From: Curvibacter lanceolatus ATCC 14669
GTDB lineage: Bacteria > Pseudomonadota > Gammaproteobacteria > Burkholderiales > Burkholderiaceae_C
Length of the DNA stretch: 64,000 nucleotides
Reading direction: 5' to 3'
Assembly: GCF_000381265.1 (NCBI RefSeq)
Contig: NZ_KB906279.1
Span: 1 to 64,000 of the forward strand
Made by a program: the position numbers and the translations under genes. Shown here in pieces: positions 3,988-34,115 of this stretch. The notes under the pieces are model-generated. The model was given only the letters and a program-made list of their open reading frames with translations, was not told the origin of the DNA and made no database searches. How positions within the stretch are numbered: the stretch's first letter is position 1; every line of letters starts with the position of its first letter.

Positions 3988-4031
3988 GTGTTTCTTCCTG
4001 TGGGCCGGGGTGCCGGCTGGGGCTGGTGGGG

Positions 4032-5136
4032 TCAGACGCCTTGCTTGAGCGAGGCTTCGATGAAAGCATCCAGGTCGCCGTCCAGCACCTTCTGGGTGTT
4101 GGAGATTTCGACGTTGGTGCGCAGGTCCTTGATGCGGCTCTGGTCCAGCACATACGAGCGGATCTGGTGGCCCCAGCCCACATCGGTCTTGCTGTCTTCG
4201 AGCTTTTGTTGTTCTTCCTGGCGCTTGCGCATCTCGTGGTCATACAGGCGCGAGCGCAGGCGCTTCCAGGCCACGTCGCGGTTGCTGTGCTGGCTGCGGC
4301 CGTCCTGGCACTGCACCACGATGCCGGTGGGGATGTGGGTCAGGCGCACGGCCGAATCGGTCTTGTTGATGTGCTGACCGCCCGCGCCACTGGCGCGGAA
4401 GGTGTCGGTGCGCACATCGGCCGGGTTGATGTCGATCTCGATCGAGTCATCGATTTCGGGGTACACGAAGACGCTGGCAAAGCTGGTGTGGCGGCCGCCC
4501 GATGAGTCGAACGGGCTCTTGCGCACCAGGCGGTGCACGCCGGTTTCGGTGCGCAGCAGGCCGAAGGCGTATTCGCCCTCCACCTTGATGGTGGCGCTCT
4601 TGATGCCGGCCACATCGCCCGGGGTTTCGTCTTCCACGGTGGCCTTGAAGCCCTTGCGCTCGGCGTACTTCAGGTACTGGCGCAGCAGCATGCTGGCCCA
4701 GTCGCAGGCCTCGGTGCCGCCGGCGCCGGCCTGCAGGTCGAGGAAGCAGGGGCTGGGGTCGGCCGGCTGGTTGAACATGCGGCGGAACTCAAGCTGCTCG
4801 ATGCTCTGGGTCAGGTGGGCGCACTCGGCCTCGATGGTCTCCAGACCGGCCTCGTCGCCTTCTTCCTTGCTCATGTCGTAGAGCTCGGTGTTGTCGGCCA
4901 GTTCGCTGCTCAGGCGGTCCAGCACCAGGACGACGTCGTCCAGGGCTTTTTTCTCTTTGCCGAGTTCCTGGGCCTTCTTGGGGTCGTTCCAGACGTTGGG
5001 GTCTTCGAGCGAGGCGGTTACCGTGCGCAGGCGTTCAGCTTTGGCAGGGTAGTCAAAGATACCTCCGTAACTCTTCGGTGCGCTGGCTCAGGTCTGCCAG
5101 GGTGGTGCCGATGAGGTTGACGCGTTCTGCTTCCAT
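4032..5136 (-). CDS. prfB: Peptide chain release factor 2, with programmed +1 frameshift
   Basis: RF2 recognises UGA and UAA stops and triggers peptide release. The zero frame runs from the ATG at 5134-5136 for 27 codons ending RRYL, then meets UGA at 5053-5055. The slip site on the minus strand is GGAGGTATCTTTGAC, the classical arrangement of an internal Shine-Dalgarno, CTT and TGA. After a +1 shift reading continues as DYPAKAERL to the stop at 4032, giving about 367 residues. The catalytic GGQ (in [10 protein letters not shown]) and the codon-recognition tripeptide SPF (in VRKSPFDS) are present. This is an autoregulatory frameshift, not a mutation. Downstream are pepN and fbp. Confidence 0.96.
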
Positions 5137-5264
5137 GATTTTTATCCTGTGAGTGTTCGGGGGCATGCCGCGAGGTGGCTCCGGGCGCCAGTGGCTGGGC
5201 ATGCAAACCCTGCATTTTCTCACGGGTCGTGACAAGACTCCCGGGTGGCCTGTTTCTGGCCCAA

Positions 5265-5290
5265 ATAAAAAAGGACCGCCGAAGCGGTCC
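5265..5290 (-). terminator. Rho-independent terminator of the lactate permease gene
   Basis: A 7-bp stem GGACCGC (5273-5279) / GCGGTCC (5284-5290) with a 4-base loop is followed on the minus strand by TTTTTTATTT. It lies 31 bp after the permease stop and separates it from prfB. Confidence 0.88.
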
Positions 5291-5321
5291 TGGAGCAGGC
5301 TTGGGGCCCAGGCCCCTGGGC

Positions 5322-6983
<1,662 letters not shown>

Positions 6984-7075
6984 TTTTGTCTCCTGTTGTT
7001 GATGGGGCGGCGTCACTTTATCGAGACCGTCTGGGTTGTGGCTGTCGAGAAGCTGTCACAAAGGCTCAGATTGAC

Positions 7076-7168
7076 TGAAAAATTTTCAAGCGGATGTTGC
7101 AGAAATTTTTGAAGACCGTTTTTGGTGTTTTCTGGGGTAAATGAAGAAAGTTGCCGTCATTTTGTCAA
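7076..7168 (-). promoter_or_regulatory. Candidate promoter and AT-rich inverted repeat upstream of lldP
   Basis: On the minus strand a TTGACA hexamer (7163-7168) and TTCATT (7140-7145) are spaced 17 bp; the -10 match is weak. Further down, an AT-rich inverted repeat TGAAAA-A-TTTTCA (7076-7088) could be an operator. The -35 overlaps the stop codon of the upstream chemoreceptor gene. The call rests on pattern alone. Confidence 0.35.
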
Positions 7169-8709
7169 CCGGGTATCACCTGAGTTCGGGTCTTGAAGAA
7201 GGCCACGGAGTTCACCAGGGCCACGGCTTGCTGCTTCAGGCTTTGCGCCGCGGCCGCCCCTTGCTCCACCAGGGCCGCGTTCTGTTGCGTGGTCTGGTCG
7301 AGTTGCTGCACGGCCTGGCCGATCTGGGCCACGCCCAGGCTTTGTTCCTTGCTGGCGGCGCTGATCTGGGCCACCAGCCGGGTCACGTCGGCGATGGCGC
7401 TGACCACCTCGGTCATGGTCGTGCCCGCCAGGCCGGCCACCTGGGCGCCTTGCTCCACCTGTTCATGGCTGGTCTGGATGAGTTGCTTGATCTCGCGTGC
7501 AGCGGCCGCGCTGCGCTGGGCCAGCACCCGCACCTCGCCGGCCACCACGGCGAAGCCCCGGCCCTGCTCACCGGCCCGGGCGGCCTCCACGGCCGCATTG
7601 AGCGCCAGGATGTTGGTCTGAAAGGCGATGCCGTCGATCACGCCGGTGATGTCGGCAATCCGGTGGGCGCTTTGCTGCATCTGCAGCACCGAGTTCACCA
7701 CCGACTGCACCGCGCCGCCGGCCCGTTGCGCCGTGTCGGAGGCCTGGTTGGCCAGGGCATCGGCGCGCAGCGCGTGGTCGGCGTTGTGTTCCACCGTGGC
7801 CGCCATCTCCTCCATCGAGGCCGAGGTCTGCTCCAGCGCCGAGGCCTGCTGCTCGGTGCGCAGGCTCAGGTCGTTGTTGCCGGCGGCAATTTCGGCACTG
7901 GCATGGGCCACCCCCTCGGCCCCCGAGCGCACGGTGCTGACCACCTGGGACAGGCGGGTCTGCATGTCGGACATGGCCTGCAGCAGTTCGGCCACTTCGT
8001 CGCGGCCTGTGGCCCGCAGGGGCAGGCTCAGATCGCCATCGGCCACGGCCCGGGTGACCTGCACCGCGCGCCCCAGCGGGCGGGTGACTGAACGGCTGAA
8101 CAACAGCGCACCCACGGCACTCAGCAGGCACACCAGCCCCATGACCGACAGGCTGATCCAGGTGCTGGCGCGGGCGTGGCTGGCCGCTGCCTCGCCTGAT
8201 TCTTCGCTGGCGCGCCGGATCAGGGCCGTGGCCTGGTCCAGCAGGCGGGCGGGCTCGCGGTCGATGCCGGTGACGGCCTTGTCTCCGGCGGAGGGGTTGA
8301 ACTGGGCCTGCTCAAACGCCTGCAGCCCTTGCCGGTAGGCCTGCCCCATGTGGTGGTGCGTCTGGCTGAACTGCTCCAGCAGGGCGCGGGCGTCGGGCTG
8401 TTCGATCCGGGCCGCGAGCTGACGCGCGCTCTGCTGCACCAGGGCTTCCTGCTTCTGAAAGGCCGCCCAGTAACGCTCGCGCTGGGCCGGGTCCTGGCCG
8501 CGCAGCAGCACGTTCTTCCATTCCTGGATCTGAACCTTGAACTCGCTGAGCAACTGGACCGCCCCCAGGGCGTTGTCGTGGTCTTTTTGCACCACCTCGC
8601 GGTACACGCCGATGGACTGGTTCAGCTGAACCAGGCCGAACAGGGCGGCTGCCAGCAGGGCGGCCAGGGCGCTGGCAAAGGCCAGCGGGAGTTTGATGCT
8701 CAGGCGCAT
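7165..8709 (-). CDS. Methyl-accepting chemotaxis protein
   Basis: Encodes about 514 residues. Chemoreceptors sit in the inner membrane and control CheA. A first membrane segment lies at about residues 8-30, then a periplasmic four-helix-bundle sensor, a second membrane segment near 190-210, a HAMP domain, and a long coiled-coil signalling domain with the hairpin tip motif [22 protein letters not shown] in part. The C-terminus (RTQVIPG) has no CheR-binding pentapeptide. Start MRLSIKLPLAF is supported by GAGGAG upstream; a longer frame begins 60 bases earlier without a better site. The ligand is unknown. The gene is upstream of lldP on the same strand, but no functional link is shown. Confidence 0.93.
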   Translation of the reverse strand: MRLSIKLPLAFASALAALLAAALFGLVQLNQSIGVYREVVQKDHDNALGAVQLLSEFKVQIQEWKNVLLRGQDPAQRERYWAAFQKQEALVQQSARQLAARIEQPDARALLEQFSQTHHHMGQAYRQGLQAFEQAQFNPSAGDKAVTGIDREPARLLDQATALIRRASEESGEAAASHARASTWISLSVMGLVCLLSAVGALLFSRSVTRPLGRAVQVTRAVADGDLSLPLRATGRDEVAELLQAMSDMQTRLSQVVSTVRSGAEGVAHASAEIAAGNNDLSLRTEQQASALEQTSASMEEMAATVEHNADHALRADALANQASDTAQRAGGAVQSVVNSVLQMQQSAHRIADITGVIDGIAFQTNILALNAAVEAARAGEQGRGFAVVAGEVRVLAQRSAAAAREIKQLIQTSHEQVEQGAQVAGLAGTTMTEVVSAIADVTRLVAQISAASKEQSLGVAQIGQAVQQLDQTTQQNAALVEQGAAAAQSLKQQAVALVNSVAFFKTRTQVIPG

Positions 8710-8832
8710 GGTGCGGTTCTCCTCAAGCTCTGGCGAGAGCCGACTTGCCACCACCCAACGCTGTTTCAAATGCCCGCGCCAGCGAGCTTCATTGTGCAGA
8801 GATTTGTGATTAATGGTGATTTTTGGGGTGAT

Positions 8833-9747
8833 TCACCCCAGAAAATCCGCTACCCGTGCGGCCAGGGCTTCGGGCTGGTCGTGGTGCAGCATGTGGCCGG
8901 CGTCGGCGATGCGGGCCACGCGGCAGTCGGGCACCCGCTGCAGGCGCTGGTGGTATTCGTCCAGGGTGTATTGGTCTTTCCACCACTGGCCCAGGCTGTC
9001 GTCCGAGGCTTCAACCGCCAGCAGCGGGGCGCTGATGCGGGCATACAGCTCCAGGGCTTCATCGACCCGGTACAGCTGCGCGCTGGTGACCTTGTGGCCC
9101 GCTTCGCCAAGGATCTGCCACTGGCTCTGCCCCTCTGGGCCGGCCACTTCGTGCGCCCAATGCTGGGCCAGCCACCGGGCCTTGTCGGCGCCCAGGCGGG
9201 GGTTGGTCTTCATCAGGCGCTGGGCCACGCCGTCCAGGCTGTCATAGGCCTTGAGGGCCATGGCGCCTGAGTGCACCTTCTTGAGTTCGTCCATCCAGCG
9301 GGCGTAGCGCCCCGGCGCCTGGGCCGGGCGGGTGGCGGGCATGCCGAAACCCTCCAGGTTGACCAGGCGGCGGATGCGTTCGGGGCGCGCACCGGCGTAC
9401 ATCATGGCCACGTTGCCGCCCATGCTGTGGCCCACCAGGTCGACCACCTGTGCGCCGGTGTAGTGGTCAAGCAGAAAGTCGAGGTCGCCCAGGTAGTCGG
9501 GAAAGCTGTAGTGATCACAGGCGGGCCCGGTGGTGAGGCCAAAACCGCGCCAGTCCGGGGCGATCACGTAGCGATCGGTGGGCAGCGCGTCGATCATGAA
9601 CTGGTACGAGGCCGCCACGTCCATCCAGCCATGCACCATCACCAGAGGGGCTTGGCCGGCTTGCGGCGCGCCCCAGACGCGCACATGGTACTGATGGCCC
9701 CGGAGGGGGATGAATTCGCTGCGGGAGAGGCGTTTGGGCTGGTACAT
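8833..9747 (-). CDS. Alpha/beta hydrolase
   Basis: Encodes about 304 residues of an alpha/beta-hydrolase fold enzyme. The oxyanion region HGWMD is near residue 43, the nucleophile elbow is GHSMGG, and a late GHMLHHDQP supplies the catalytic histidine; an acidic residue in VEASDDSLG is a likely third triad member. It resembles carboxylester hydrolases of the MhpC or haloperoxidase type, but the substrate cannot be told. The ATG at 9745-9747 is used; a GTG at 9774 would add nine residues, and neither has a clear ribosome site. It is divergent from the aldo/keto reductase gene. Confidence 0.85.
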   Translation of the reverse strand: MYQPKRLSRSEFIPLRGHQYHVRVWGAPQAGQAPLVMVHGWMDVAASYQFMIDALPTDRYVIAPDWRGFGLTTGPACDHYSFPDYLGDLDFLLDHYTGAQVVDLVGHSMGGNVAMMYAGARPERIRRLVNLEGFGMPATRPAQAPGRYARWMDELKKVHSGAMALKAYDSLDGVAQRLMKTNPRLGADKARWLAQHWAHEVAGPEGQSQWQILGEAGHKVTSAQLYRVDEALELYARISAPLLAVEASDDSLGQWWKDQYTLDEYHQRLQRVPDCRVARIADAGHMLHHDQPEALAARVADFLG

Positions 9748-9945
9748 CGCGCGGATGATACGAAACGCGCTCACCTGACGTCAGTCAAGTCCAGGACAAG
9801 CCTGCAAGGCCCGCCAGCAGAAAAATCTGCCCGCCCGTACACTCTTTGCCGCCGTTGTTCGCCAAGCAGCCGGGTCCTTTGGAGGGCCTCTGGCCGGAGC
9901 CATCGGCGGCGCGGATTTCCATCAGACAGACCCATCGGAGTTTTC

Positions 9946-11007
9946 ATGAACAAAGTCCAGCTCGGACAAAGCGATCTGCACGTCACGCCCATCTGCCTGG
10001 GCACCATGACCTTTGGCGAGCAGGTTGACGAGGCCAACGCCCACGCCATCCTGGACCGCTCGCTGGCGGCCGGCGTCAACTTCCTCGACACCGCCGAGAT
10101 GTATGCGGTGCCGGCCCGTGCCGAGACCTGCGGCGCCACCGAAACCATCCTCGGCAACTGGTTCGCCAAGAACCCGGGTGCTCGCCAGCAGGTGGTGCTG
10201 GCCACCAAGGTGGCGGGCCCTTCGCGCGGCATGCCCTGGATCCGCGAGGGGGCCGGCATGACGGCGGCCGACATCGCGGCCTCCTGCGAAGGCAGCCTGC
10301 GCCGCCTGCAGACCGACGTGATCGACCTCTACCAGATCCACTGGCCCGAACGCAATGTGCCGGCCTTCGGCGCCATGTACTACGACCCCAGCAAGGAGCG
10401 CTCGGTCACCTCGATCCACGAGCAACTCGAGGCCCTGGGCCGCCTGGTGAAGGCGGGCAAGGTGCGCTATGTGGGGCTGTCCAACGAGACCCCTTATGGC
10501 GTGCATGAGTTCGTGCGCCTGGCAGAACAGCATGGCCTGCCCCGCGTGGCCACGGTGCAGAACCCGTACTGCCTGATCAACCGCAGCTACGAGAACGCCC
10601 TGGACGAAAGCTGCCAGCGCCTGAATGTGTCGCTGCTGGCCTACTCGCCGCTGGGCTTTGGCCTGCTGACCGGCAAGTACGACGCCAGTGGAACCGAAGG
10701 CCCTGAAGCACCGAAAGAGGGCCGCATCGCCCGTTACGAGTCGGTGCGCAAGCAGCGCTGGGGCCGCCCCGAGGCACTGGTGGCGGCGCGCCGCTACAAC
10801 GCGCTGGCACGCGAGCATGGTCTCACGCCCACCCAGTTGGCGCTGGCGTTCTGCTACACCAAGTGGCAGGTGGCCAGCACCATCATCGGCGTGACTTCGG
10901 TCGCCCAGTTGGACGAAGACCTGGCGGCCTGGGGTACCACGCTGTCGCCCGAACTGCTGGCGGCGATCGACGCCATCCGTTGGGAACTGCGCGACCCCGC
11001 GATCTGA
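9946..11007 (+). CDS. tas: Aldo/keto reductase, Tas-like
   Basis: Encodes 353 residues of an NADPH-dependent aldo/keto reductase with a TIM-barrel fold. The family tetrad is visible: D and Y in FLDTAEMYAVP, K in LATKVAGPSRG, H in YQIHWPERN. Resemblance to Escherichia coli Tas extends through GLSNETPYGVHEF, VQNPYCLINRS and AYSPLGFGLLTGKY. The physiological substrate is unknown. ATG at 9946 is 5 bases after a CGGAG; an open frame upstream is readthrough. It is divergent from the hydrolase and convergent with the M20 peptidase. Confidence 0.9.
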   Translation: MNKVQLGQSDLHVTPICLGTMTFGEQVDEANAHAILDRSLAAGVNFLDTAEMYAVPARAETCGATETILGNWFAKNPGARQQVVLATKVAGPSRGMPWIREGAGMTAADIAASCEGSLRRLQTDVIDLYQIHWPERNVPAFGAMYYDPSKERSVTSIHEQLEALGRLVKAGKVRYVGLSNETPYGVHEFVRLAEQHGLPRVATVQNPYCLINRSYENALDESCQRLNVSLLAYSPLGFGLLTGKYDASGTEGPEAPKEGRIARYESVRKQRWGRPEALVAARRYNALAREHGLTPTQLALAFCYTKWQVASTIIGVTSVAQLDEDLAAWGTTLSPELLAAIDAIRWELRDPAI

Positions 11008-11015
11008 TCGACGCA

Positions 11016-11044
11016 GTCGGCCTAATCGATGGATTCAGGCCGAC
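11016..11044. terminator. Inverted repeat between convergent genes
   Basis: An 8-bp perfect inverted repeat GTCGGCCT / AGGCCGAC with a 13-base loop fills the 47-bp gap between the aldo/keto reductase and the M20 peptidase. No T run follows on either strand, so it is at best a weak bidirectional terminator. Confidence 0.4.
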
Positions 11045-11054
11045 CCGGTTGAGT

Positions 11055-12485
11055 TCAGGCAGTCGCCTGGGCCAGCGCCCCAGCCCGCCAGGGGGCGCCG
11101 GGTTCACCCAGGTCCCAGAACAGGCCGGCCATCAGGGCCAGGCCCTCACGGGCCACCGAGGCCAGCAGGTGCTCATTGGGGGCGTGCTGGGCGCAGGCCG
11201 GGTACGAATGCGGCACCCACAGCGTGGGCAGGCCCAGGCCTTCCGAGAAGATGTCATTGGGCAAAGACCCGGCCAGGTTGGGCAGCAGGCTGACCGCCTT
11301 GCCCGTGCTGGCCTGCATCGAGGCCAGGGCCCAGTCGATCCAGGGGTTGTCCAGGGCCAGTCGGGTGGCGGCGCAGCTCATGCCCATCTCCAGCCGAACG
11401 TCGGTGAAGCCGTGCGCGTCCAGGTGCTCGCGCAAGTGCTTTTCGGCGTTGCGCCAATCGGTGCCGACCACAAAACGCAGCTGACAGTGCGCCACGGCCG
11501 AGGCCGGGATGGCGTTGATCGGCCGCACGGCCGAGCCGGCGCCCAGGCCCAGCACCTCCAGCGTGTTCCAGCCCACCAGGCGCTCGGCCGGCGTCAGGCC
11601 CGGCTCGCCCCAGCCGGGGCTGAGGGCGGGGTCATCGGTGCCGCCGCCCACCGGCAGGTCGTGCAAGGCCTGGCGCAGGCGCTCTGGCGGGGCTGGCGGG
11701 CGCAGGGCGGCCACGCGCATCTCGCCTTGCGGGCCGATCAGGCTGGCCACCGCGTGGCTCACGCGGGTGCCCGGGTTGCTCAGCACGCCGCCCCAGTTGC
11801 CCGAGTGGTAGGCGCGCGGGCGGGGCTGCACATGCAGCGAGAAATTGATGGCGCCCCGTGAGCCCAGGAACAGGGTGGGGCGCTCGGCATGCACGCGCGG
11901 GCCGTCGCTGGCCAGGAACAGGTCGGCGCGCAAGGCTTCGCGGTGTTGCTGGCAGAACTCGGCCAACCCGGGTGAGCCGGCCTCTTCGCCCATCTCCAGC
12001 AGCACCGTCAGGTTGTAGCCCAGGCGCTGCTGGCGGGCCTGCAGGGTGTGGGCCAGTGCGCTGAGGTTGATGCTGTGCTGGCCCTTGTTGTCGGCCGTGC
12101 CGCGGCCATACCAGCGGTCGCCCTCGACGCTCAGTTGCCAGGGGTTCAGGCCCTCCCGCCACTGCGGCGTCTGTCCATTGACCACATCGCCATGGCCGTA
12201 GGTCAGCACGGTGGGGGCGGCCGGGTCTTCGATGCGCCTGGCCAGCAGGAACGGGCCGGCACCGGGCACCGGGTTGGGCAGGATCTGCACCTCGAAGCCC
12301 AGCGCCTGCAGCACGGGGCTCATCTCGTCGCTCAGGTAGCCCTGCAGGGCGGCCTGCGAGGCCTCGGTGGCGTCGGCGCCCAGGTCGCTTTCGGTGCGCC
12401 AGGCGACCCGGCGCGCCAGGGTGGCGGCCAGGGCGCCACTGTCAAGTTCGTGGCGGGCTTGCTGGATCAGTTGGTTTCGGGTCAT
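11055..12485 (-). CDS. M20 family metallopeptidase
   Basis: Encodes 476 residues related to ArgE/DapE/CPG2 dinuclear zinc hydrolases, which cleave amide bonds in dipeptides or N-acyl amino acids. Visible metal-site motifs are TYGHGDVV (first His and Asp), RGTADNKGQ (bridging Asp), and LLEMGEEAGSPG (catalytic and metal Glu). A dimerisation or lid insert follows, then the last metal His in VPHSYPACAQHAPNEH. The substrate is not predictable. ATG at 12483-12485. The YitT gene is 64 bp upstream on the same strand and may be co-transcribed. Confidence 0.9.
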   Translation of the reverse strand: MTRNQLIQQARHELDSGALAATLARRVAWRTESDLGADATEASQAALQGYLSDEMSPVLQALGFEVQILPNPVPGAGPFLLARRIEDPAAPTVLTYGHGDVVNGQTPQWREGLNPWQLSVEGDRWYGRGTADNKGQHSINLSALAHTLQARQQRLGYNLTVLLEMGEEAGSPGLAEFCQQHREALRADLFLASDGPRVHAERPTLFLGSRGAINFSLHVQPRPRAYHSGNWGGVLSNPGTRVSHAVASLIGPQGEMRVAALRPPAPPERLRQALHDLPVGGGTDDPALSPGWGEPGLTPAERLVGWNTLEVLGLGAGSAVRPINAIPASAVAHCQLRFVVGTDWRNAEKHLREHLDAHGFTDVRLEMGMSCAATRLALDNPWIDWALASMQASTGKAVSLLPNLAGSLPNDIFSEGLGLPTLWVPHSYPACAQHAPNEHLLASVAREGLALMAGLFWDLGEPGAPWRAGALAQATA

Positions 12486-12549
12486 GTCGGGCTTTCAGTG
12501 AGGTGGGTGGGCCTCCCCGACGCCCGAGCGGGCAGAACGGCGGGGCGGG

Positions 12550-13263
12550 TCAGGATCCGATGTAGCGGTCCTTGCGGTGGTTCATGGTCAGGATCAGGTT
12601 CAGCACCACGGCGCCGGCCACCGACAGGGCCACATTGGGCAGGGGGGCGGTCCACAGGGCCAGCAGCAGGATGGCGCAGTCGATGGCCATCTGGATGTGG
12701 CCGGCCTTCCAGCCCCGGCTCTCCTGCAGGTAGAAGGCCAGGATGCCGACCCCGCCCAGGCTGGCGCGGTGGCGGAACAGCATCAGAAAGCCGACGCCCA
12801 GCAGCACGCCACCGAGCACGCTGGCGTAGATCGGGTCGAGTTGGGCAAAACTGATCCAGTGCGGGGTCCATTCGGCCAACAGCGACAGCAGGGCCACCGC
12901 CGCAATCGTCTTGAGCACAAAGGCACGCTCCATGCGCTTCCAGGCCAGCACGTAAAAGGGCAGGTTGAGCACAAAGAACACCTTGCCGAAGCTGATGCCG
13001 CTGGCGTAGTGCACGATGAAGGCCAGCCCGGCCATGCCCCCCGTCAGCAGGTGGTCGTGCCCGTAGATGGCCACGCCCAGGGCGATCAGCAAGGTGGCCG
13101 AGAACAGTGCAAAAGCGTCTTCCGTGAGGCTGTGGGGCGCCACGCCGCTGACGGGGGAGCTGGGCGCAGGCGCTGCGGCTGGGGTGGATGCCGGGGGGGA
13201 TTCCGGTTGCGGCATCGGCGCTGCGATCGGCGCCACTGTCTGGGCAGGTTCTGGGGTGTTCAT
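12550..13263 (-). CDS. YitT family membrane protein
   Basis: Encodes 237 residues. The first 60 are rich in Pro and Ala and look disordered; then come about five or six membrane helices starting near LFSATLLIALGVAI, with the family-like glycine segment LLTGGMAGLAF. Members of this family are uncharacterised inner-membrane proteins, possibly transporters. The start MNTPEPAQT at 13261-13263 is preceded by GGAG at slightly long spacing; frames upstream are not supported. It lies between the Bug receptor and M20 peptidase on the same strand. Confidence 0.82.
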   Translation of the reverse strand: MNTPEPAQTVAPIAAPMPQPESPPASTPAAAPAPSSPVSGVAPHSLTEDAFALFSATLLIALGVAIYGHDHLLTGGMAGLAFIVHYASGISFGKVFFVLNLPFYVLAWKRMERAFVLKTIAAVALLSLLAEWTPHWISFAQLDPIYASVLGGVLLGVGFLMLFRHRASLGGVGILAFYLQESRGWKAGHIQMAIDCAILLLALWTAPLPNVALSVAGAVVLNLILTMNHRKDRYIGS

Positions 13264-16846: not shown

Positions 16847-17839
16847 TCAGAAGCCGCGGGGTTGTTGCGAGCGGGCCACCGAGATCATGACCGCGTGGTT
16901 GATCATGAGCTTGACTGCATCGGAGGGCACCGCCGCCTGGATGCGTTGCTCGCCCAGGGCGATGTTGCGCAGGCGCGGGTGCGGGAAGGGCTCGCCACGC
17001 GGGTCGATGAGGCTGGCCACCAGCGGTTGGTTGAGTTGCGCGGTGCGCCTCAGCACCACGGCCAGGTCCTGGTTGTCGAGCCTCACATAGGTGCCGGGCG
17101 GGCACAGGCCCACGTGCCGCACCAGGGCTTGGGCCACATCATCATGGCGTCCCTGACTGGCGCTGATGACTGCGCGCAGCGAGTCGGTCACGCTGCGGCC
17201 TGGGCGTGAGCGCCGCGGGCTGATCATGGCGGCATAGCGGTCGATCACCTGCAGGATGTGGGTCAGGCGCAGCACCGGATCGGGCACGCTGCCGGGCAGC
17301 GTCAGGGGCAGGTTCTCGTGGTGCGAGGCCACGATGGCCAGCCAGAGTTCGTCCTTGATGCCCACACGGGCCAGCAGCATGCAGCTTTTGACCGAGTGGG
17401 CGTCGATGTTGGTCTGCTGCTCGACCGAGGGGCGGGTGGTCTGCTCGGCCAGTTCGTCCTGCAGCGCCGTCATGGAGATGTTCATCGTCAGGGCCGCGGC
17501 CACCAGGCTGTCGCGTTGTGCGCTGGGCAGTTGCAGTTCCAGCGCGATGATGTGGCACAGCGCCGCGCACACCAGCGAGTGGGTGGTGCTGTAGCCCGCG
17601 ATCGAGGTGCCCGCCATTTGAAACAACAGGTACAGCGCGGTGTCGGCGTCCTGTTCTAGCAGGTCCTGCATCCAGCGGTCGTACTGCCGCACCTTCTGAT
17701 GAAAGCTGTCGACGTTGTCGGGCACGGCCAGCAGCATGCCCAACCCGGATTCCAGGTCGCTCCATTGGCTCAGTAGGTCCTCATAGCTTTCGCTTGGGCC
17801 ATCCTGGGCCAGGTGCATGGGCAGGGTGTCGCCGCTCAC
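16847..17839 (-). CDS. Degenerate HD-GYP-like domain protein
   Basis: Encodes 330 residues. An N-terminal helical segment of about 65 residues precedes an HD-GYP-like fold. Family positions can be aligned as H87 (STTHS), then MNISM at 119-123 where HDIGK is expected, H148 (DAHS), SHHE at 172-175 and D200 (VIDRYAA). The HD dyad is missing, and no GYP follows HHE, so cyclic-di-GMP hydrolysis is doubtful; a binding or scaffolding role is inferred. The GTG start overlaps the stop of the protease gene by 4 bases (GTGA), showing tight coupling. No receiver domain is present. Confidence 0.75.
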   Translation of the reverse strand: MSGDTLPMHLAQDGPSESYEDLLSQWSDLESGLGMLLAVPDNVDSFHQKVRQYDRWMQDLLEQDADTALYLLFQMAGTSIAGYSTTHSLVCAALCHIIALELQLPSAQRDSLVAAALTMNISMTALQDELAEQTTRPSVEQQTNIDAHSVKSCMLLARVGIKDELWLAIVASHHENLPLTLPGSVPDPVLRLTHILQVIDRYAAMISPRRSRPGRSVTDSLRAVISASQGRHDDVAQALVRHVGLCPPGTYVRLDNQDLAVVLRRTAQLNQPLVASLIDPRGEPFPHPRLRNIALGEQRIQAAVPSDAVKLMINHAVMISVARSQQPRGF

Positions 17840-19049: not shown

Positions 19050-20132
19050 ATGTTGCCGATGTTAGTCGAGAAAAATGTCCCGCTCCAGCCTTACAACACC
19101 TTCGGGATCGCGGCCCGTGCCCAGACCCTGGTGCGCGTGCGCGCCCAGGCCGATCTGAGCGAGCTGATGGCCGACCCCGAACTGGGCCCGGCGCCCAAGT
19201 GGGTGCTGGGCGGGGGCAGCAACATCGTGCTCACCGGCGATGTGCGCGATGTGGTGCTGAAGATGGAGATCAAAGGCCTGCGCGTGCTGGACGAAACCCC
19301 CCGCGCCTGGATTGTCGAGGCGGGTGCGGGCGAGGCCTGGCACGACACCGTGGCCTGGACCCTGGACCAGAACCTGCCCGGCCTGGAGAACATGGCCCTG
19401 ATCCCGGGCACGGTGGGCGCCTCGCCGGTGCAGAACATCGGCGCCTATGGCGTCGAACTGCAGGACCGCTTTGAATCGCTCGATGCCTTCGACCTGCTGA
19501 CCGGGCAGACCTTCACCCTGAATGCTGCCCAATGCGCCTTCGGCTACCGCGACTCGGTGTTCAAGCACCGGGCGCCTGCCTCGCCGCAGAATGCCTCACT
19601 GCCCCTGGGGCTGGGGCTGGCCGGCCGGGCCGTGATCACCCGGGTGCGCCTGCGCCTGCCCAAGCCCTGGAGGCCCGAGCTGGGCTACCTGGACCTGGAG
19701 CGGCGCCGCGTCCAGGCCGGCATCGAACGGCCCGAGGCGCGGCAGATCTTCGACTGGGTGTGCGACATCCGCCGCAGCAAGCTGCCCGACCCGGCCGAGG
19801 TGGGCAATGCCGGCAGCTTTTTCAAGAACCCCTCGGTCACGCCTGAGCAGTGTGCCGACATCATTGCCCGCGAGCCCCGCATCGTGCATTACCCCATGGC
19901 CGACGGCAGCATCAAGCTGGCGGCGGGCTGGTTGATCGACGCCTGTGGCTGGAAGGGCAAGTCGGTGGGCAAGGCCGGGGTGTACGACAAGCAGGCCCTG
20001 GTGCTGGTGAACCGTGGCCACGGCGCTGACAGCGTGACCGGCGGCGAGGTGATGACCCTGGCCCGGGCCATCCAGACCAGCGTGTATGAACGCTTCGGCA
20101 TCCGACTGGAGCCCGAGCCCGTGGTGATCTGA
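19050..20132 (+). CDS. murB: UDP-N-acetylenolpyruvoylglucosamine reductase
   Basis: Encodes 360 residues of a cytosolic FAD enzyme that reduces UDP-GlcNAc-enolpyruvate to UDP-MurNAc for peptidoglycan. FAD-site motifs GGGSNIVL and [15 protein letters not shown], the type I YRDSVFK loop, the catalytic serine in [10 protein letters not shown] and the glutamate near the C-terminus (RLEPEPVVI region) are present. Either ATG at 19050 or 19059 could start it. It is convergent with the cheY-like gene. Confidence 0.95.
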
Positions 20133-20137
20133 ACCCC

Positions 20138-20157
20138 GGCGCCCGGATCGGGGCGCC
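20138..20157. terminator. Inverted repeat between murB and cheY
   Basis: GGCGCCC (20138-20144) and GGGCGCC (20151-20157) form a 7-bp GC stem in the 32-bp gap between convergent genes. There is no T run, so termination is uncertain. Confidence 0.35.
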
Positions 20158-20164
20158 TGAGCGA

Positions 20165-20530
20165 TCAAGCCACCATCTTCTTGAGCGAGGCGATCACGGC
20201 CGGGCCGTTGAAGGGCTTGACGATCCAGCCCTTGATGCCGGCCGCCTTGCCGCGCTCTTTCATGGCGGGTGAGTTTTCGGTGGTCAGCATGATGATGTTG
20301 ACGCTGCCATTCTTCAGCTCGCTGCGCACTTTCTCGGCCATGGTCAGGCCGTCCATGTTGGGCATGTTGACGTCGCAGATGACCAGCTTCACGCCAGGGT
20401 CGCCCTTGAGTTTGGCCAGCCCGTCACGACCGTCGACGGCGAATGCCACGCCGAGGCCATTGGATTTCAGGAAGTCACCGACTTCATTGCGAACGGTGCT
20501 GGAGTCGTCAACGACGAGAATCTGTGCCAT
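20165..20530 (-). CDS. CheY-like response regulator
   Basis: Encodes 121 residues, a single receiver domain. The acidic pocket is D8-D9, the phospho-acceptor D53 (VICDVNMPNMDG), the switch threonines at T83-T84 and K105 in GWIVKPF. No output domain, so it acts by protein contact as CheY does. It is the last gene of a four-gene operon, 18 bp after the CheC/CheX-like gene, and is the likely phosphate acceptor for the membrane CheA-like kinase at 21860-24211. Whether it contacts the flagellar switch is not known. Confidence 0.93.
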   Translation of the reverse strand: MAQILVVDDSSTVRNEVGDFLKSNGLGVAFAVDGRDGLAKLKGDPGVKLVICDVNMPNMDGLTMAEKVRSELKNGSVNIIMLTTENSPAMKERGKAAGIKGWIVKPFNGPAVIASLKKMVA

Positions 20531-20548
20531 GGCTTGTTCCTTCTTGAG

Positions 20549-21106
20549 TCAAAACATTTCCAGTTCACCGGTGCCCTGTTCGGCCAGGTCGGGGATCTGG
20601 AAGTCGAAATCGAGGTCTTCTGATTCGCTCACGCAGAGCGTCAGAAACAGGGGCGGGCTGTCGGTCACGCTGAGCCGGAAGTGCTGCAGATGTCCGTACT
20701 TGAGGATGCCCAGGTGGGCCGTGCAGCGGCTGTCAACGATGTTGGGGGTGGACATGCCCACCCAGGGGAAGACCGAACCTAGATCGCGGTTGACGCCGCC
20801 GCAGCACAGGTTGCCTGCTTCGCAGATGGCATCCAGAAATGATTGCTCCGACATCTCTTCGGCCTTTTGCCGGCTGAGCCGGGCAAAGTGGCGGCGTGTT
20901 GCATCGTTGTGGCTGAAGTGCAGCACGATCAGCATGCGAAACGTCAGCGAGGCAATGCTCAGCAAGGCCGCGTGCGATTCGGGTGGCTGGCGCAGCTCGG
21001 GCAAGGTGACCAGTTCTGTCACCTCGTCGGGCGAGGGCGCCAAGGCGGCCTTCAGACCCTGCATCACCATCTTGTCGAAGCCTGCTTTGGCGCGGCTGCT
21101 GATCAT
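20549..21106 (-). CDS. CheC/CheX-like protein of a chemosensory-like operon
   Basis: Encodes 185 residues without signal or membrane segments. An ExxN motif at E96-N99 (ICEAGNLCCGGVNRDLG) followed by WVGMSTPNIVD resembles the active helix of CheC/CheX/FliY CheY-phosphatases, which carry E and N at these positions and a downstream Pro. The protein has only one such motif, as in CheX. The N-terminal 85 residues are of unknown fold. It overlaps the MCP-like gene by 4 bases (ATGA) and precedes cheY, so a role in removing phosphate from that CheY is a reasonable inference. The family assignment is from motif only. Confidence 0.6.
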   Translation of the reverse strand: MISSRAKAGFDKMVMQGLKAALAPSPDEVTELVTLPELRQPPESHAALLSIASLTFRMLIVLHFSHNDATRRHFARLSRQKAEEMSEQSFLDAICEAGNLCCGGVNRDLGSVFPWVGMSTPNIVDSRCTAHLGILKYGHLQHFRLSVTDSPPLFLTLCVSESEDLDFDFQIPDLAEQGTGELEMF

Positions 21107-21840
21107 GCGGTGGCGTCCTGTTCGCTGACAAGATTCAGGATCTTGCGGTTTTGCAGCTCCAGCCCGGTGACGGCGCCCACGATCATCTTGCCGCCGGCCT
21201 GCATGTCCTGGAAGGTGGTGGTGGTGATGAGGTCGTTCTCGTACAGGCTGCTGCGAAAATCCTGGGCCAGCTTTTCGGCGCGCACCGACAGCGAGCGCAT
21301 CTCGTCAGCCACGACCGCGAAGCCCCGCCCCATGGTGCCGGCCCGCGCCGCCTCGATGGAGGCGTTGAGTGCCACGATCACCAATTGGCGTACGATGGAA
21401 GCGAATTCGTCGTTCTTGTTGTGCATGGCCCGGTTGTGGCCGAGCAGAAAGTCCATGCTGGCGTGCCAGCGCTCGTAGGTCTTGCCCACGTTGCGCAGTT
21501 CGGTGATGGAACGGTCCAGCGTGTCGCACTGGCTGGCGATCTGGGTCTGGGCCTGGCTGGCCTGGGCCTGGCTGTGCGTCAGGCGCAGCTGTTGCTCACC
21601 GATCAGCGCTTGCTGGCGGGCGTCCCATTGCCTTTGAGCGTCGTGCAGGCGCTGCTCCAGGGCTTCGATCTGGTCTTGCAGGTCGGCGGCTCTGGCCTGG
21701 GCGCGCTGGTTGCTGTCTTCCAGCAGTTGCCGCGGGACCATGGTCTGCAGGGTGGCGTTCAGCCTGTGGGCGCGCCAGCCCAGCAGCATGCTCATCACGA
21801 TGGCGCCCATCAGGAGGGTCAGCATCAGCGTGGTCGTCAT
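21103..21840 (-). CDS. Short MCP-like membrane-anchored protein lacking sensor and HAMP
   Basis: Encodes 245 residues. One membrane helix at about 5-22, then a coiled coil rich in Gln and Ala (about 30-110), then a reduced MCP signalling hairpin with VALNASIEAARAGTMGRGF and VVADEMRSLS near residues 158-185. Canonical receptors read [23 protein letters not shown], so the tip is altered (RQLVIVALNAS, GTMG). No periplasmic domain, HAMP or pentapeptide. The start at 21838-21840 follows AAGGCAC. It lies 19 bp after the CheA-like gene and overlaps the CheC/CheX-like gene. It may be a scaffold for the kinase rather than a receptor. Confidence 0.8.
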   Translation of the reverse strand: MTTTLMLTLLMGAIVMSMLLGWRAHRLNATLQTMVPRQLLEDSNQRAQARAADLQDQIEALEQRLHDAQRQWDARQQALIGEQQLRLTHSQAQASQAQTQIASQCDTLDRSITELRNVGKTYERWHASMDFLLGHNRAMHNKNDEFASIVRQLVIVALNASIEAARAGTMGRGFAVVADEMRSLSVRAEKLAQDFRSSLYENDLITTTTFQDMQAGGKMIVGAVTGLELQNRKILNLVSEQDATA

Positions 21841-21859
21841 CTTGCGTGCCTTTTCTTGC

Positions 21860-24211
21860 TCAAGCGGTTTGCGGTCGTTGCTGAGCCGCGGCGTGCACGC
21901 CCAGCGAAGCGGGGAGATGGATCCGTGTCTCGAAGGGAACGTGCTCGCGCTGGGTCGCCTCGGCCAACAGCCGCAACTCGATGCGGCCACCGGCTGATTC
22001 GACAAACATCTTCACGGCGTCCATGCCGACACCGCGCCCGGACACCTCGGTGACCGTGCTGGCGGTGGAAAAGCCGGGGGCGAAGATCAGCTGGGCCAGA
22101 TCCTGGGCTTCAGGGTGCTGGCTGGCATCGAGCAGGCCTTGCTCGATCGCCTTGGCCCGGATGCGCTGCAGGGCCAGGCCTTTGCCATCGTCGCTCAGCA
22201 CCAGGTGCAGACCCTGGGCGTCCAGTTGCAGGTCGATCCGGATGGTGCCGGCAATCGGCTTGTCGGCTGCCACGCGGTCCAGAATGGGCTCGATGCCGTG
22301 GTCCATGGCGTTGCGCAGCAGGTGCATGAACACATTGCGCAACAAGGGGGCAGCGGTCGGACGCAGCAGCACGCCCTGATCGGCCAGGACCAGCTTGGGC
22401 GCCTCCTTGCCCAGTTCGAGGGCCAGCGAGGGCAGCGATTCGAACACGCTGGACAGGGTGTCCTGCAGCGATTTGCTGCCCAGGGTGGCCAGGCGGCTCT
22501 TGATGTCGCGGATGGCCTGCGCAGCAGCGCTCAGGTCGCTGGTGTCCACGCCCTCCAGCATTTGCAAGGTGTGCTGGATCTCGGCCTGCGACACGCTGTG
22601 CCCTGCGTCTTCGGTCGCGTCATTGCCGCGGCTGAGCTTGTCGGCGTTGAGCGTGGCGTATTCCTCCAGCGTGTGGCGGGCTTGGGCCAATTCATTCAGA
22701 TAGCGCTCGTTGTCCCATTCCAGGGCCTCTTGCTGGCGCAGGTCGTCATAGCTTTGCTCGGCCTGGTGCAGCACGTCGGTCAGGGTGTGCAGACCGTAGG
22801 TGCGCGCGTTGCCCTTGACGGTGTGCATGTTGCGGAACAGCAGGCCCAGGTGCTGGCGCCGCGTGGCGTCGTCCTGGCTGGCGGCGGTTTCCAGGGTTTG
22901 CTGGTTCTCGTCGAGGAACTGGCGGGCACTGGCCAGGAAGCCTTTGAAGCGGTCCTGCGGCACCGACAGGATCTCTCCGATCATGGCCAGCTCGCGTTTC
23001 TGGGCATCGGCCGCCTTGGCCAGGGATTTGAGTTCGGTCACATCACGCACGCACAGCAGCAGGCGCTCGGTGCTGTCTTGCTCGTTGGTGATCGGCGACC
23101 AGATCAGGTCCAGGATCTTGACGCGGCCATCAGGCAGGGTCTTTTCCACCTCGCGGGGCAGCAAGTGGGCGTTGAAGTCGAAATTCATGCGGTCTTCGCC
23201 GATGCAGGCGGCCACCGCAGCCTCGACCTGCGATCGGGCATCGGCACCGAGGTTCACGCCGGCAAAAATCACCTCGATGAAATCGCGCCCGGCGATGTCT
23301 TCGGTCTCCAGTACGGTGCTCAGGAAGTCGGAGAACTCGGGGTGGATGGTGTTGCCGTTTTCGATCGTCAGAATGCCCTGGGGCACGTTGTGCAGCATGG
23401 CGTGGATGTCGGCAGTTTTCTGGCGCACCAGGGCGCTGCTTTCCTCGATCTTCTCGATCATGGTGTTGAATGCGGTGATCGAGCGCCCCACCTCATCCTG
23501 CCGGGTGACGGGCAGGCGGTGGGTGTAGTCCTGGCTGGTGGCGATCTCGGTCATCTTCAATTCCATGTCCTTGATCGGGTGCACCACCTGGCGGTACAGA
23601 ATGCGGCCAATGGCCACCAGCAACACCACGGCCAGCACGGTGGCGATGGTCAGTGTGGTGGTGGTGCTGGTGAGGTGGCTGTTCATGCTCTCGATGGCCG
23701 CATCTTTGCTGCGGCGCTTTTCGATCTGCAGCGTGTCGAGCAGGGCCCCTTGCTCGCGCAGGTACTGGTCGACCGTGGCGCCCATGTTGGCCTCAGCCAT
23801 GTCCTTCATGCCCTTGAGCTTGAAGTTGGCGGTGTCGTCGATGGCGCTGAAGTAGTTCTTCAGGCTTTCTGCGGCCTCTTTGACCAGGCCTTTCTGGGCG
23901 GTGCTGTCGGCCATCTCGAGTTGGTGGTCCAGCGCCTTTTGCAGGATCTCCTTCTTCTGGGCCAGTTCGTCGCGGGTGCGGGCCACGGTCTGTTCATCGG
24001 GGGCGGCCACCATGCTCATGGCGGCCATCTGCACATCCTTGAGCTGGCCTTGCAACTCCACCGAGTGCATGGCGCTGGGCACCACGCCCTCGGTCACGCT
24101 GCGCACCTCGGAGGCGCTGCCATGTGACTGGAACACGGCAAAGGCGCCGATCGAGCTGAGGGCCAGAAAGGTCAGGGTGATCAGCAACACGATGCGTTGA
24201 CGTATGTTCAT
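21860..24211 (-). CDS. Membrane sensor fused to CheA-type HPt and kinase domains
   Basis: Encodes 783 residues. Membrane helices lie at about 7-27 and 186-206 around a periplasmic four-helix-type sensor, then HAMP (about 208-260), a PAS-like region (265-400), an HPt domain with the phospho-histidine H463 in MHTVKGNARTYGL, and a HATPase domain with N box HLLRNAMDHGIEP (N634), DDGKGL and GRGVGMDAV as in CheA. There is no CheW-like P5 domain at the end and no receiver. So receptor and kinase are one chain. The ATG at 24209-24211 follows GAAGGA. It heads the operon with the MCP-like, CheC/CheX-like and CheY genes. The ligand is unknown. Confidence 0.85.
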   Translation of the reverse strand: MNIRQRIVLLITLTFLALSSIGAFAVFQSHGSASEVRSVTEGVVPSAMHSVELQGQLKDVQMAAMSMVAAPDEQTVARTRDELAQKKEILQKALDHQLEMADSTAQKGLVKEAAESLKNYFSAIDDTANFKLKGMKDMAEANMGATVDQYLREQGALLDTLQIEKRRSKDAAIESMNSHLTSTTTTLTIATVLAVVLLVAIGRILYRQVVHPIKDMELKMTEIATSQDYTHRLPVTRQDEVGRSITAFNTMIEKIEESSALVRQKTADIHAMLHNVPQGILTIENGNTIHPEFSDFLSTVLETEDIAGRDFIEVIFAGVNLGADARSQVEAAVAACIGEDRMNFDFNAHLLPREVEKTLPDGRVKILDLIWSPITNEQDSTERLLLCVRDVTELKSLAKAADAQKRELAMIGEILSVPQDRFKGFLASARQFLDENQQTLETAASQDDATRRQHLGLLFRNMHTVKGNARTYGLHTLTDVLHQAEQSYDDLRQQEALEWDNERYLNELAQARHTLEEYATLNADKLSRGNDATEDAGHSVSQAEIQHTLQMLEGVDTSDLSAAAQAIRDIKSRLATLGSKSLQDTLSSVFESLPSLALELGKEAPKLVLADQGVLLRPTAAPLLRNVFMHLLRNAMDHGIEPILDRVAADKPIAGTIRIDLQLDAQGLHLVLSDDGKGLALQRIRAKAIEQGLLDASQHPEAQDLAQLIFAPGFSTASTVTEVSGRGVGMDAVKMFVESAGGRIELRLLAEATQREHVPFETRIHLPASLGVHAAAQQRPQTA

Positions 24212-24541
24212 GACAGTGTCCTTCGCGAGAGTCGGTCCACCGGACACCGGATGCCGGCTTGTGGCCGAGGGGTGTGAACGGTGGTGATGGGTTGGGTGTT
24301 TTGCCCTGTCGCCTGTAGGGGGCTGCGTGAGCAGACTGAACAGGTGCCGGGCTTGGGGCTTGATCTTCCCGGGATGCCATGACCCCCCGATGGCGGAACC
24401 ATGACGCCTGTATGAAACGGCGCAATGCATGGCCGGACGATGGCAGGTCAGGTGATTTTTATGACCACGAGATGCTGAGGTTGCTCAGGAATTGCAAAGG
24501 GTGATGCGAGGCATCAGAGTGCGCCCGGTGGGCTGCGAACG
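24212..24541. other. Intergenic region upstream of the CheA-like gene
   Basis: About 330 bases without a supported gene. The first 20 bases hold the ribosome site of the CheA-like gene, and its promoter must lie here, but no convincing sigma-70 or flagellar sigma-28 hexamer pair was found. Reading frames that cross it lack starts with ribosome sites. Confidence 0.6.
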
Positions 24542-24573
24542 AAAAAAAAGCCAGTCGGCTGTTGGCCGCTGGC
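24542..24573 (-). terminator. Rho-independent terminator of argG
   Basis: GCCAG-T-CGGC (24550-24559) pairs with GCCG-CTGGC (to 24573), with one bulged T and a short loop, followed on the minus strand by eight T residues. It is 46 bp downstream of the argG stop. Confidence 0.85.
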
Positions 24574-24619
24574 TTGTTGGGGGATGCCACCCGAAGGGCG
24601 GCATCAGAGGGGGGGGCGC

Positions 24620-26295
<1,676 letters not shown>

Positions 26296-33368: not shown

Positions 33369-33449
33369 TTGAGGCTCAGGAGTTAACGACATAAATAAAA
33401 CGATGTTGAAGACAAATGAGCTGACTTGAAGTCAGATCAAGCTAGATGT

Positions 33450-33525
<76 letters not shown>

Positions 33526-33560
33526 CAGTTTGTTTTGATGGTTAAGTAGTCCAAGGTTTT

Positions 33561-33636
33561 GACCCTATCGTCTAGAGGCCTAGGACATCACCCTTTCACG
33601 GTGAGTACCGGGGTTCGAATCCCCGTAGGGTCGCCA
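33561..33636 (+). tRNA. tRNA-Glu (anticodon TTC), copy 1
   Basis: 76 nt with encoded CCA. Acceptor GACCCTA pairs with TAGGGTC, anticodon stem CACCC/GTGAG-type with loop giving TTC, T-arm CGGGGTTCGAATCCCCG. Confidence 0.96.
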
Positions 33637-33683
33637 AGTTTGTAGCACTTGGTTCTGGAAACAGAACGCAAAGCTGCCTGCCA

Positions 33684-33760
33684 GGAGTGGTAGTTCAGTT
33701 GGTTAGAATACCGGCCTGTCACGCCGGGGGTCGCGGGTTCGAGTCCCGTCCACTCCGCCA
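33684..33760 (+). tRNA. tRNA-Asp (anticodon GTC), copy 1
   Basis: 77 nt with encoded CCA. Acceptor GGAGTGG pairs with CCACTCC, D-arm GTTCAGTTGGTTAGAAT, anticodon loop CTGTCAC giving GTC, T-arm GCGGGTTCGAGTCCCGT. Confidence 0.96.
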
Positions 33761-33817
33761 GTCAAAGTCTTCGGGCGTTCACGTCAGAAGCGTTTTTTGG
33801 TTGAAAGCCAGAAAATT

Positions 33818-33893
<76 letters not shown>

Positions 33894-33914
33894 ATTTCGG
33901 TTAGTCCAAGGTTT

Positions 33915-33990
33915 GACCCTATCGTCTAGAGGCCTAGGACATCACCCTTTCACGGTGAGTACCGGGGTTCGAATCCCCGTAGGGTCGCCA
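33915..33990 (+). tRNA. tRNA-Glu (anticodon TTC), copy 2
   Basis: Identical over 76 nt to the copy at 33561-33636. The spacer before it (AGTCCAAGGTTT) also matches the first set. Confidence 0.96.
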
Positions 33991-34038
33991 AGTTTGCAGC
34001 ACTTGGCTCTGTCTACAGAGCACAAAAGCTGTCTGCCA

Positions 34039-34115
34039 GGAGTGGTAGTTCAGTTGGTTAGAATACCGGCCTGTCACGCCGGGGGTCGCGGGTTCGAGTC
34101 CCGTCCACTCCGCCA
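34039..34115 (+). tRNA. tRNA-Asp (anticodon GTC), copy 2
   Basis: Identical over 77 nt to the copy at 33684-33760. Last tRNA before the terminator. Confidence 0.96.

Follow-up and report, generated by a model that had tools for sequence, protein, structure and literature searches.

In the first 64,000 nucleotides of contig NZ_KB906279.1 of Curvibacter lanceolatus ATCC 14669 (the window), four minus-strand genes at positions 20165-24211 form a compact chemosensory-like operon, which we refer to as the K-M-X-Y module. The window genome (G000) comprises 6.8 Mb in 72 contigs. The operon encodes K, a receptor-CheA fusion kinase of 783 residues (21860..24211); M, a short membrane protein of 245 residues with the hairpin of a methyl-accepting chemotaxis protein (MCP) (21103..21840); X, a protein of 185 residues with a predicted CheX fold (20549..21106); and Y, a CheY-like response regulator of 121 residues (20165..20530). 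All features described below for these genes lie on the same minus strand. A gap of 19 nt separates K from M, M and X share a 4-nt ATGA overlap, and X is separated from Y by 18 nt; the intergenic spacing in a close relative (L040) is identical. This anatomy is as described by the original prediction, which was made from the sequence of the window, and the coordinates agree with the four packed genes it reported. The start of K at 24211 matches that of most relatives in the K alignment, whereas an upstream ATG, opening a frame of 856 aa, does not. A scan of 20050-24700 displays one sigma-70-like site (0.4 expected), located inside the operon at 21131-21102, and no terminator-like site on the operon strand.

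The kinase K carries four Pfam domains above the cut-off, namely 4HB_MCP_1, HAMP, Hpt (33 bits) and HATPase_c, and its membrane helices were read from the sequence. HAMP covers residues 205-257 (23441..23599; 37.4 bits, cut-off 25) and is followed by a putative PAS-like domain (residues 278-390; 23042..23380), which is assigned from elements of the AlphaFold model and has no Pfam match in the window protein. The Hpt domain, equivalent to P1 of CheA (residues 419-525; 22637..22957), is supported by Pfam, by CheA P1 structures and by the model, and harbors the predicted phosphorylation site H463 (codon 22823..22825). The CheA-type ATPase, or P4 (residues 587-773; 21893..22453), is matched by HATPase_c and by CheA P4 structures. 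A profile of 27 K proteins, built from the window and 26 of 29 related loci (omitting L048, where K lies in two frames, L049, and L051, which is cut by the contig start), matches the P1 and P3-P4 structures of CheA in the PDB. All 27 rows share H463 and the ATP-site residues N634, D674-G676 and G725-G729. The AlphaFold model of K (mean predicted local distance difference test, pLDDT, 78.5; predicted template modelling score, pTM, 0.43) shows helices for the sensor and for HAMP, then a PAS-like fold, Hpt, and the ATPase up to residue 773. Between the last two, a shortened P3-like helical pair is predicted (residues 542-576; 22484..22588). Its model helices, 542-553 and 560-576, are 12 and 17 residues long as compared to the long P3 helices of CheA; the profile match extends into the P3 part of 4xiv, and H-kinase_dim (PF02895) has no Pfam match in K.

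The original prediction read K as one chain of sensor, HAMP, PAS-like domain, Hpt with H463 and CheA ATPase, ending after the ATPase. This reading stands, with Pfam recognizing every part except the PAS-like one, which comes from the model. A P5/CheW-like domain (PF01584), whose presence would contradict it, was looked for in K by Pfam, NCBIfam, PDB profile and structure model, and none of the four revealed one. The ATPase is followed by 3-43 residues in the K rows, compared to 137-351 in CheA rows (rows cut by the end of a locus excluded). Ten divergent K proteins also lack a CheW domain (0/10 at E 0.001). Hpt and ATPase are retained in all ten, and the sensor part varies, with 4HB in five, HAMP in four, GAF in one, PAS in one and no named sensor in four. 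The kinase reading frame is split in two in L048 and in L249 (G011).

A maximum-likelihood tree of 81 ATPase domains places the K rows on one side of a branch with a support of 100/99. Of these domains, 48 are K rows, near-copies among them, and 33 are CheA rows drawn from the available loci. The tree was computed without the window row and one near relative; with these two included (83 rows), the branch separating K from CheA has a support of 100/98. The long K row of L247 attaches close to the CheA side, a placement that may be false, as the program warned. Since the tree is unrooted and the CheAs come from relatives only, it shows K as one lineage, not its origin. In the available passages of a survey of 13,673 CheA sequences, P1, P3, P4 and P5 (the CheW domain) are present in 100% and CheA has no sensor, being coupled to receptors by P5 and CheW; these passages give no indication whether P5 was a condition for inclusion (PMC10782961). 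Because K fails the definition of CheA given there, we do not file it as CheA (PMC10782961). Compared to CheA of classes F1-F17, Tfp and ACF, K has an Hpt with the active-site His and a P4 ATPase with all motifs, but its membrane sensor, HAMP and PAS are fused in cis, P3 is shortened, P5/CheW is missing, and its ATPase stands apart from the 33 CheA rows. Class I sensor histidine kinases (transmembrane-HAMP-PAS-DHp-CA) likewise couple sensor, transmembrane part, HAMP and PAS to a kinase in one chain; K differs from them in having Hpt and a CheA ATPase in place of DHp and CA. Judged by its sequence, K is a kinase that would work like CheA behind the front of a sensor kinase.

The module is real and conserved. 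Among 80 loci kept for comparison, 29 (L040-L068) contain true M relatives, and the other 51 resemble M only in the vicinity of the MCP tip, with shorter and weaker matches. M, X and Y follow each other in this order on one strand in 29/29 loci, and K adjoins them in 29/29, directly upstream in 27. The exceptional positions of K are next to Y on the same strand (L049), next to Y on the other strand (L054), and upstream in two frames (L048). As order and adjacency are kept throughout, the association is more than chance, and a scattering of the genes in relatives, the other finding that would argue against the original prediction, was looked for and not found. In the nearest loci, L040 and L041, the four proteins are 81-100% identical to those of the window. 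A further set of 21 regions from other genomes contains a strong X in 19, accompanied by M in 19/19, Y in 18, K in 17 and a fifth gene, RX, in 15 (L144 and L053 are apparently one locus). Plasmid records of Burkholderia cenocepacia and Caballeronia hold all five genes, and one of Ideonella holds K, M, X and a cut-down Y. On this Ideonella dechloratans plasmid (L247), the stretch 3776-12601 contains K, M and X, followed by the cut-down Y, an integrase and the genes of a diversity-generating retroelement.

The X profile matches 17 of 399 genomes sampled in the order Burkholderiales (16 strongly, own genome included, and one weakly), 6 of 369 in the class (5 strongly, own included) and 21 of 398 in the phylum (5 strongly, own included, the rest at ~20-27 bits). 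Weak matches, among them G330, G766 and the 20-27 bit matches in the phylum, are probably ordinary CheX and were not taken as module members; the G330 region scores 59 bits for X and has no other module gene, and the G766 region scores 27 bits for X. As far as sampled, the module is thus sporadic in beta- and some other gammaproteobacteria. No widely conserved neighbor beyond the five genes is found in 50 regions plus the window; among the 26 clusters listed, none occurs in more than 10, and the larger ones appear, by eye, to be shadow frames or synteny among close relatives. Wsp-type and Tfp/Chp chemosensory systems, which serve non-motility functions or pili, likewise encode a CheA-like kinase side by side with a receptor and a regulator dedicated to it. 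These systems have CheW, CheR/CheB and arrays, and they differ from the present module, which shows no such conserved neighbor. In one relative the genes are annotated as Hpt domain-containing protein, methyl-accepting chemotaxis protein and hypothetical protein. No description of the module was found in the literature listings searched, mostly non-subscription, or in the available passages of PMC10782961, PMC6943060, PMC8880074 and PMC6600141.

The second protein, M, scores 57.4 bits with Pfam MCPsignal (cut-off 34.6) and has no Pfam match to a sensor domain or HAMP, in agreement with the MCP-like partner lacking both that had been predicted. One N-terminal hydrophobic helix, read from the sequence, leads into a coiled coil that varies within the family and then into a hairpin, conserved over ~55 residues on the near side of the MCP tip and ~65 beyond it; the M of Curvibacter gracilis is 97% identical. 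In the alignment of the family, M keeps most of the MCP tip (residues 155-174; 21319..21378), ALNASIEAARAG. It shares the tip hairpin with MCPs, but differs from them by the missing sensor and HAMP, by a short C-terminal arm, and by mostly hydrophobic residues in place of the T-N pair that immediately precedes the tip. The N of this pair is present in 0/41 unique M sequences versus 33/36 other MCPs in hand, M rows being told from other MCPs by the motif FQD-x-QA. In the form FQD-[MLI]-QA, this motif lies ~40 residues past the tip (FQD at residues 210-212; 21205..21213) and is kept in 30/30 alignment rows and in 24/24 M rows of a wider set. It resembles FQDLTGQ of CheZ, and FQD even falls in register with it in an alignment, but the hhalign probability is 0.3% (E 0.22). 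As this profile comparison is not significant, we claim a resemblance of motifs and not homology of M to CheZ. MAC1/MAC2 were also considered for M; in the available MiST 3.0 text, MAC stands for methyl-accepting coiled-coil proteins. As for its function, M may act as a scaffold, regulate K, or work on Y as an active partner.

The retained tip would also allow a different arrangement. CheW is found in 45/45 module genomes tested, with nine CheW-domain places in the own genome, and since M also keeps most of the tip, coupling to ordinary arrays is possible. M might then be a bridge, linked by its tip to ordinary CheA/CheW arrays, with K and Y modulating canonical chemotaxis or being modulated by it. 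The MCPsignal score above the cut-off agrees with such a role; the loss of the N of the T-N pair, the absence of HAMP, the shortness of the conserved hairpin, and a K devoid of P5 do not, and we regard the bridge as unlikely.

The response regulator Y matches Response_reg with 81.2 bits and has the full set of phosphorylation residues (D8/D9, D53, T83/T84 and K105), so that its predicted identity as CheY holds. The predicted phosphoacceptor D53 (codon 20372..20374) stands in the context DVNMP in 48/48 module Y rows. Y is also the most constrained of the four proteins, with a median identity of 0.79 versus 0.52 for K, 0.46 for M and 0.38 for X. The position of Tyr106 of E. coli CheY, which lies at the FliM face, is occupied by Trp in 48/48 module Y proteins, compared to Tyr in 13/13 readable CheZ-linked CheYs (16 loci), that of the own genome included. 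Because Trp stands where CheZ-linked CheYs have Tyr, the output of Y need not be the motor.

Flagellin occurrence bears on the same point. It is present in 45/46 module genomes, the exception being G1140 (1.9 Mb), and in the Burkholderiales sample it is found in 273/399 genomes overall and in 17/17 with an X match, one of them weak. The association has a p-value of ~0.0013 for the 17 genomes and 0.0020 for the 16 strong ones, values that ignore relatedness and genome size. One explanation would be that Y directly regulates the flagellar motor, with K replacing the array as the source of phosphorylated Y, which then binds FliM like an ordinary CheY. We find this doubtful in view of the invariant Trp, of the limits of the flagellin statistics just given, and of the closest PDB sequence to Y, the CheY of 4h60, which we take to be a Vibrio CheY lacking FliM binding. 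Control of motility is our first guess for the output of Y. Of the roles originally suggested, motility is weakly favored by the co-occurrence with flagellin, and nothing here speaks for adhesion or storage.

The Pfam score of X against CheX, 20.1 bits, lies below the cut-off of 27. Its AlphaFold model (pLDDT 87.8) has CheC/CheX chains as nearest PDB neighbors in Foldseek (E 2e-8 to 1e-7, with 2.0e-8 to 3iic and 7.5e-8 to 1squ; modest TM-scores of ~0.55-0.6 on the query length). Chains of FliY and FliM, which belong to the same superfamily as CheX and CheC, match more weakly. Compared with PDB sequences, the X profile gives a weak match (E 0.011 to 1xko). The motif D-x3-E-x2-N (D92, E96 and N99; E96-x2-N99 at 20810..20821) is invariant in 30/30 rows, and D/S-x3-E-x2-N is the active-site motif of CheX/CheC. 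Because of motif and fold we assign X to CheX, and the model indicates that X has the CheX fold. The CheC/CheX-like identity proposed earlier is therefore kept in spite of the Pfam score, and X differs from known CheX/CheC phosphatases in that score and in a C-terminal tail.

In 16/29 loci, the fifth gene, RX (~324 aa), lies between X and Y. Its product joins a CheX domain to a receiver-like part, in contrast to ordinary CheX/CheC phosphatases. The C-terminal CheX domain passes the Pfam cut-off (40.1 bits in one RX protein), and E225 and N228 are invariant in 15 rows. The first part is not called as Response_reg by Pfam and matches the profile of the Y family with 73% probability (E 3.1e-5, one comparison). 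Asp occupies the place aligned to D53 of Y in 4/15 rows, so the phosphoacceptor is mostly lacking. A second strong RX gene occurs in 11/46 genomes (for example G1145:C254 and G083:C14), and the genome of L150 has an RX with an inner stop.

A whole-genome search detects no RX in the window genome, while the same search is positive in 30/46 genomes. This absence, together with the broken K frames of L048 and L249, could suggest that the module is decaying in the window genome, with RX lost and M or X perhaps already idle. The four window genes are, however, intact with their active-site residues, the nearest loci keep all four proteins at the high identity given above, and RX is missing from the cluster in 13/29 loci, several of which come from cultured isolates whose four other module genes are all intact. 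Decay is therefore a very improbable account.

X and RX share a C-terminal peptide with the consensus GELE[LMF]F-COOH, an observation that is new here. In the window X it reads GELEMF followed by the stop codon (20549..20569), a feature supported by the X alignment and by a pattern search in DNA. The tail is disordered in the model (pLDDT <50, residues 175-185), and the linker preceding it is variable in the alignment. At the extreme C-terminus, 49/49 member X proteins fit G-x-[LM]-E-[LMF]-[FL] (the non-member row L158 excluded), 41 of them strictly GE[LM]E[LMF]F. Similarly, 31/31 cluster RX proteins fit G-[ED]-L-[ED]-[LMF]-F, with 27 in the strict form. At the DNA level, the pattern GE-x-E-x-F-stop gives 75 matches in 44/46 genomes (none in G651 and G1160) versus 2 for a reversed control. 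Ends of X or RX account for 71 of the 75: 63 in module regions (63/63 at X/RX ends), the window X, and seven unlinked RX copies. The remaining four comprise a match in an MCP-like protein that carries a CheZ-like motif, a match in a frame that is probably meaningless, and two matches that end in TGG instead of a stop. Seven of the second RX genes fit the tail pattern and the other four end in GELDLF; of the copies read, six had been found by the pattern and four independently of it, and every one ends in GELE[LF]F or GELDLF.

In module genomes, CheZ proteins have C-termini such as DDLLESLGF (nine tails read, 16 loci). CheZ binds CheY through its C-terminal peptide. Like the X tail, this peptide is acidic-hydrophobic and ends in Phe, although X has the predicted CheX fold and not the CheZ fold. 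By analogy, we infer that X and RX use the tail to dock on Y.

L241, L215/L221, L239 and L240 contain MCP-like proteins in which the tip is followed by a CheZ-like motif, FQD-x-T-x-Q, and the C-terminal tail ends in I-x-[LF]-F. L241 belongs to the own genome (match at G000:C23:44145-44408). One of these proteins ends in SGEIELF, resembling the tails of X and RX, and Pfam CheZ gives only E 0.12 for the L215 protein. Judging from their sequences, they are possible receptor-phosphatase chimeras.

We consider it fairly probable that the module is an array-independent CheA-type phosphorelay. A membrane signal would pass through HAMP and PAS to the ATPase of K, and because the signal would reach the ATPase by this route, neither CheW nor P5 would be needed. 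H463 of K would become phosphorylated and its phosphoryl group would be transferred to D53 of Y. X would dock on Y by its tail, like the CheZ C-terminal peptide on CheY, and remove the phosphate, assisted on Y by RX in those relatives that have it. M would be anchored in the membrane and pair, as a coiled coil, with K, X or Y. The relay is well supported by the anatomy of the module, namely a K without P5 and with invariant H463 and ATP-site residues, a sensor part that varies while Hpt and ATPase are kept, the joint conservation of the genes, the correlated distances of the four proteins, the CheX fold and shared tail of X, and the strong constraint on Y.

Several points weigh against this proposal. 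Autophosphorylation, transfer and dephosphorylation are all inferred, the evidence for the module consisting of sequence and models only, and the overall confidence of the K model is low, as its pTM indicates. X scores under the Pfam CheX cut-off, and the tail as a dock for CheY rests on analogy. The relay gives M no definite role, and the MCP tip of M suggests that some contact with ordinary arrays may remain; with CheW in all module genomes tested, independence from the array is no more than a proposal. The four proteins K, M, X and Y have correlated pairwise distances (r 0.69-0.93, with 0/1000 label permutations as high; 27 rows), but such correlations cannot separate co-inheritance from shared species history, which alone could produce them. 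Hence, the self-contained module originally proposed stands with regard to a P5-less receptor-CheA fusion conserved together with M, X and Y, whereas its isolation from ordinary arrays is uncertain, given CheW and the tip of M.

A bolder reading, which we put forward only tentatively, is that the module represents a separate class of chemosensory pathway off the receptor array. In this class, CheA would have been rejoined to its own receptor, and the MCP would have been reduced to a membrane coiled-coil regulator that perhaps acts on phosphorylated Y through the invariant FQD. The GELE[LMF]F tail would then be a common docking code for unlike CheY-acting proteins, namely X, RX, and perhaps the MCP-CheZ-like proteins.

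A conserved CheA kinase core placed behind a membrane sensor of its own would reveal how far the array can be dispensed with, and the module offers a small system for studying the control of CheA as in an ordinary sensor kinase. The tail shared by X and RX provides a testable rule for how phosphatases find their response regulator. As the module is sporadic, lacks fixed neighbors and has its sensor part swapped, it is perhaps a ready-made signalling cassette.

Near the module, the window encodes an HD-domain protein on the minus strand (16847-17839), with Pfam HD above the cut-off and HD_5 just below. It is separated from the module by DUF520 and aspartyl-protease-like genes and one that is presumably murB-like. 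The HD-domain gene is retained beside the module in L040 and L041 and was seen nowhere else among the neighborhood matches listed. Further along, at 33449-34115, the window contains a tRNA triplet, Ala(GGC)-Glu(TTC)-Asp(GTC), in tandem duplication, with repeat blocks of 77-115 nt that are 94-100% identical.

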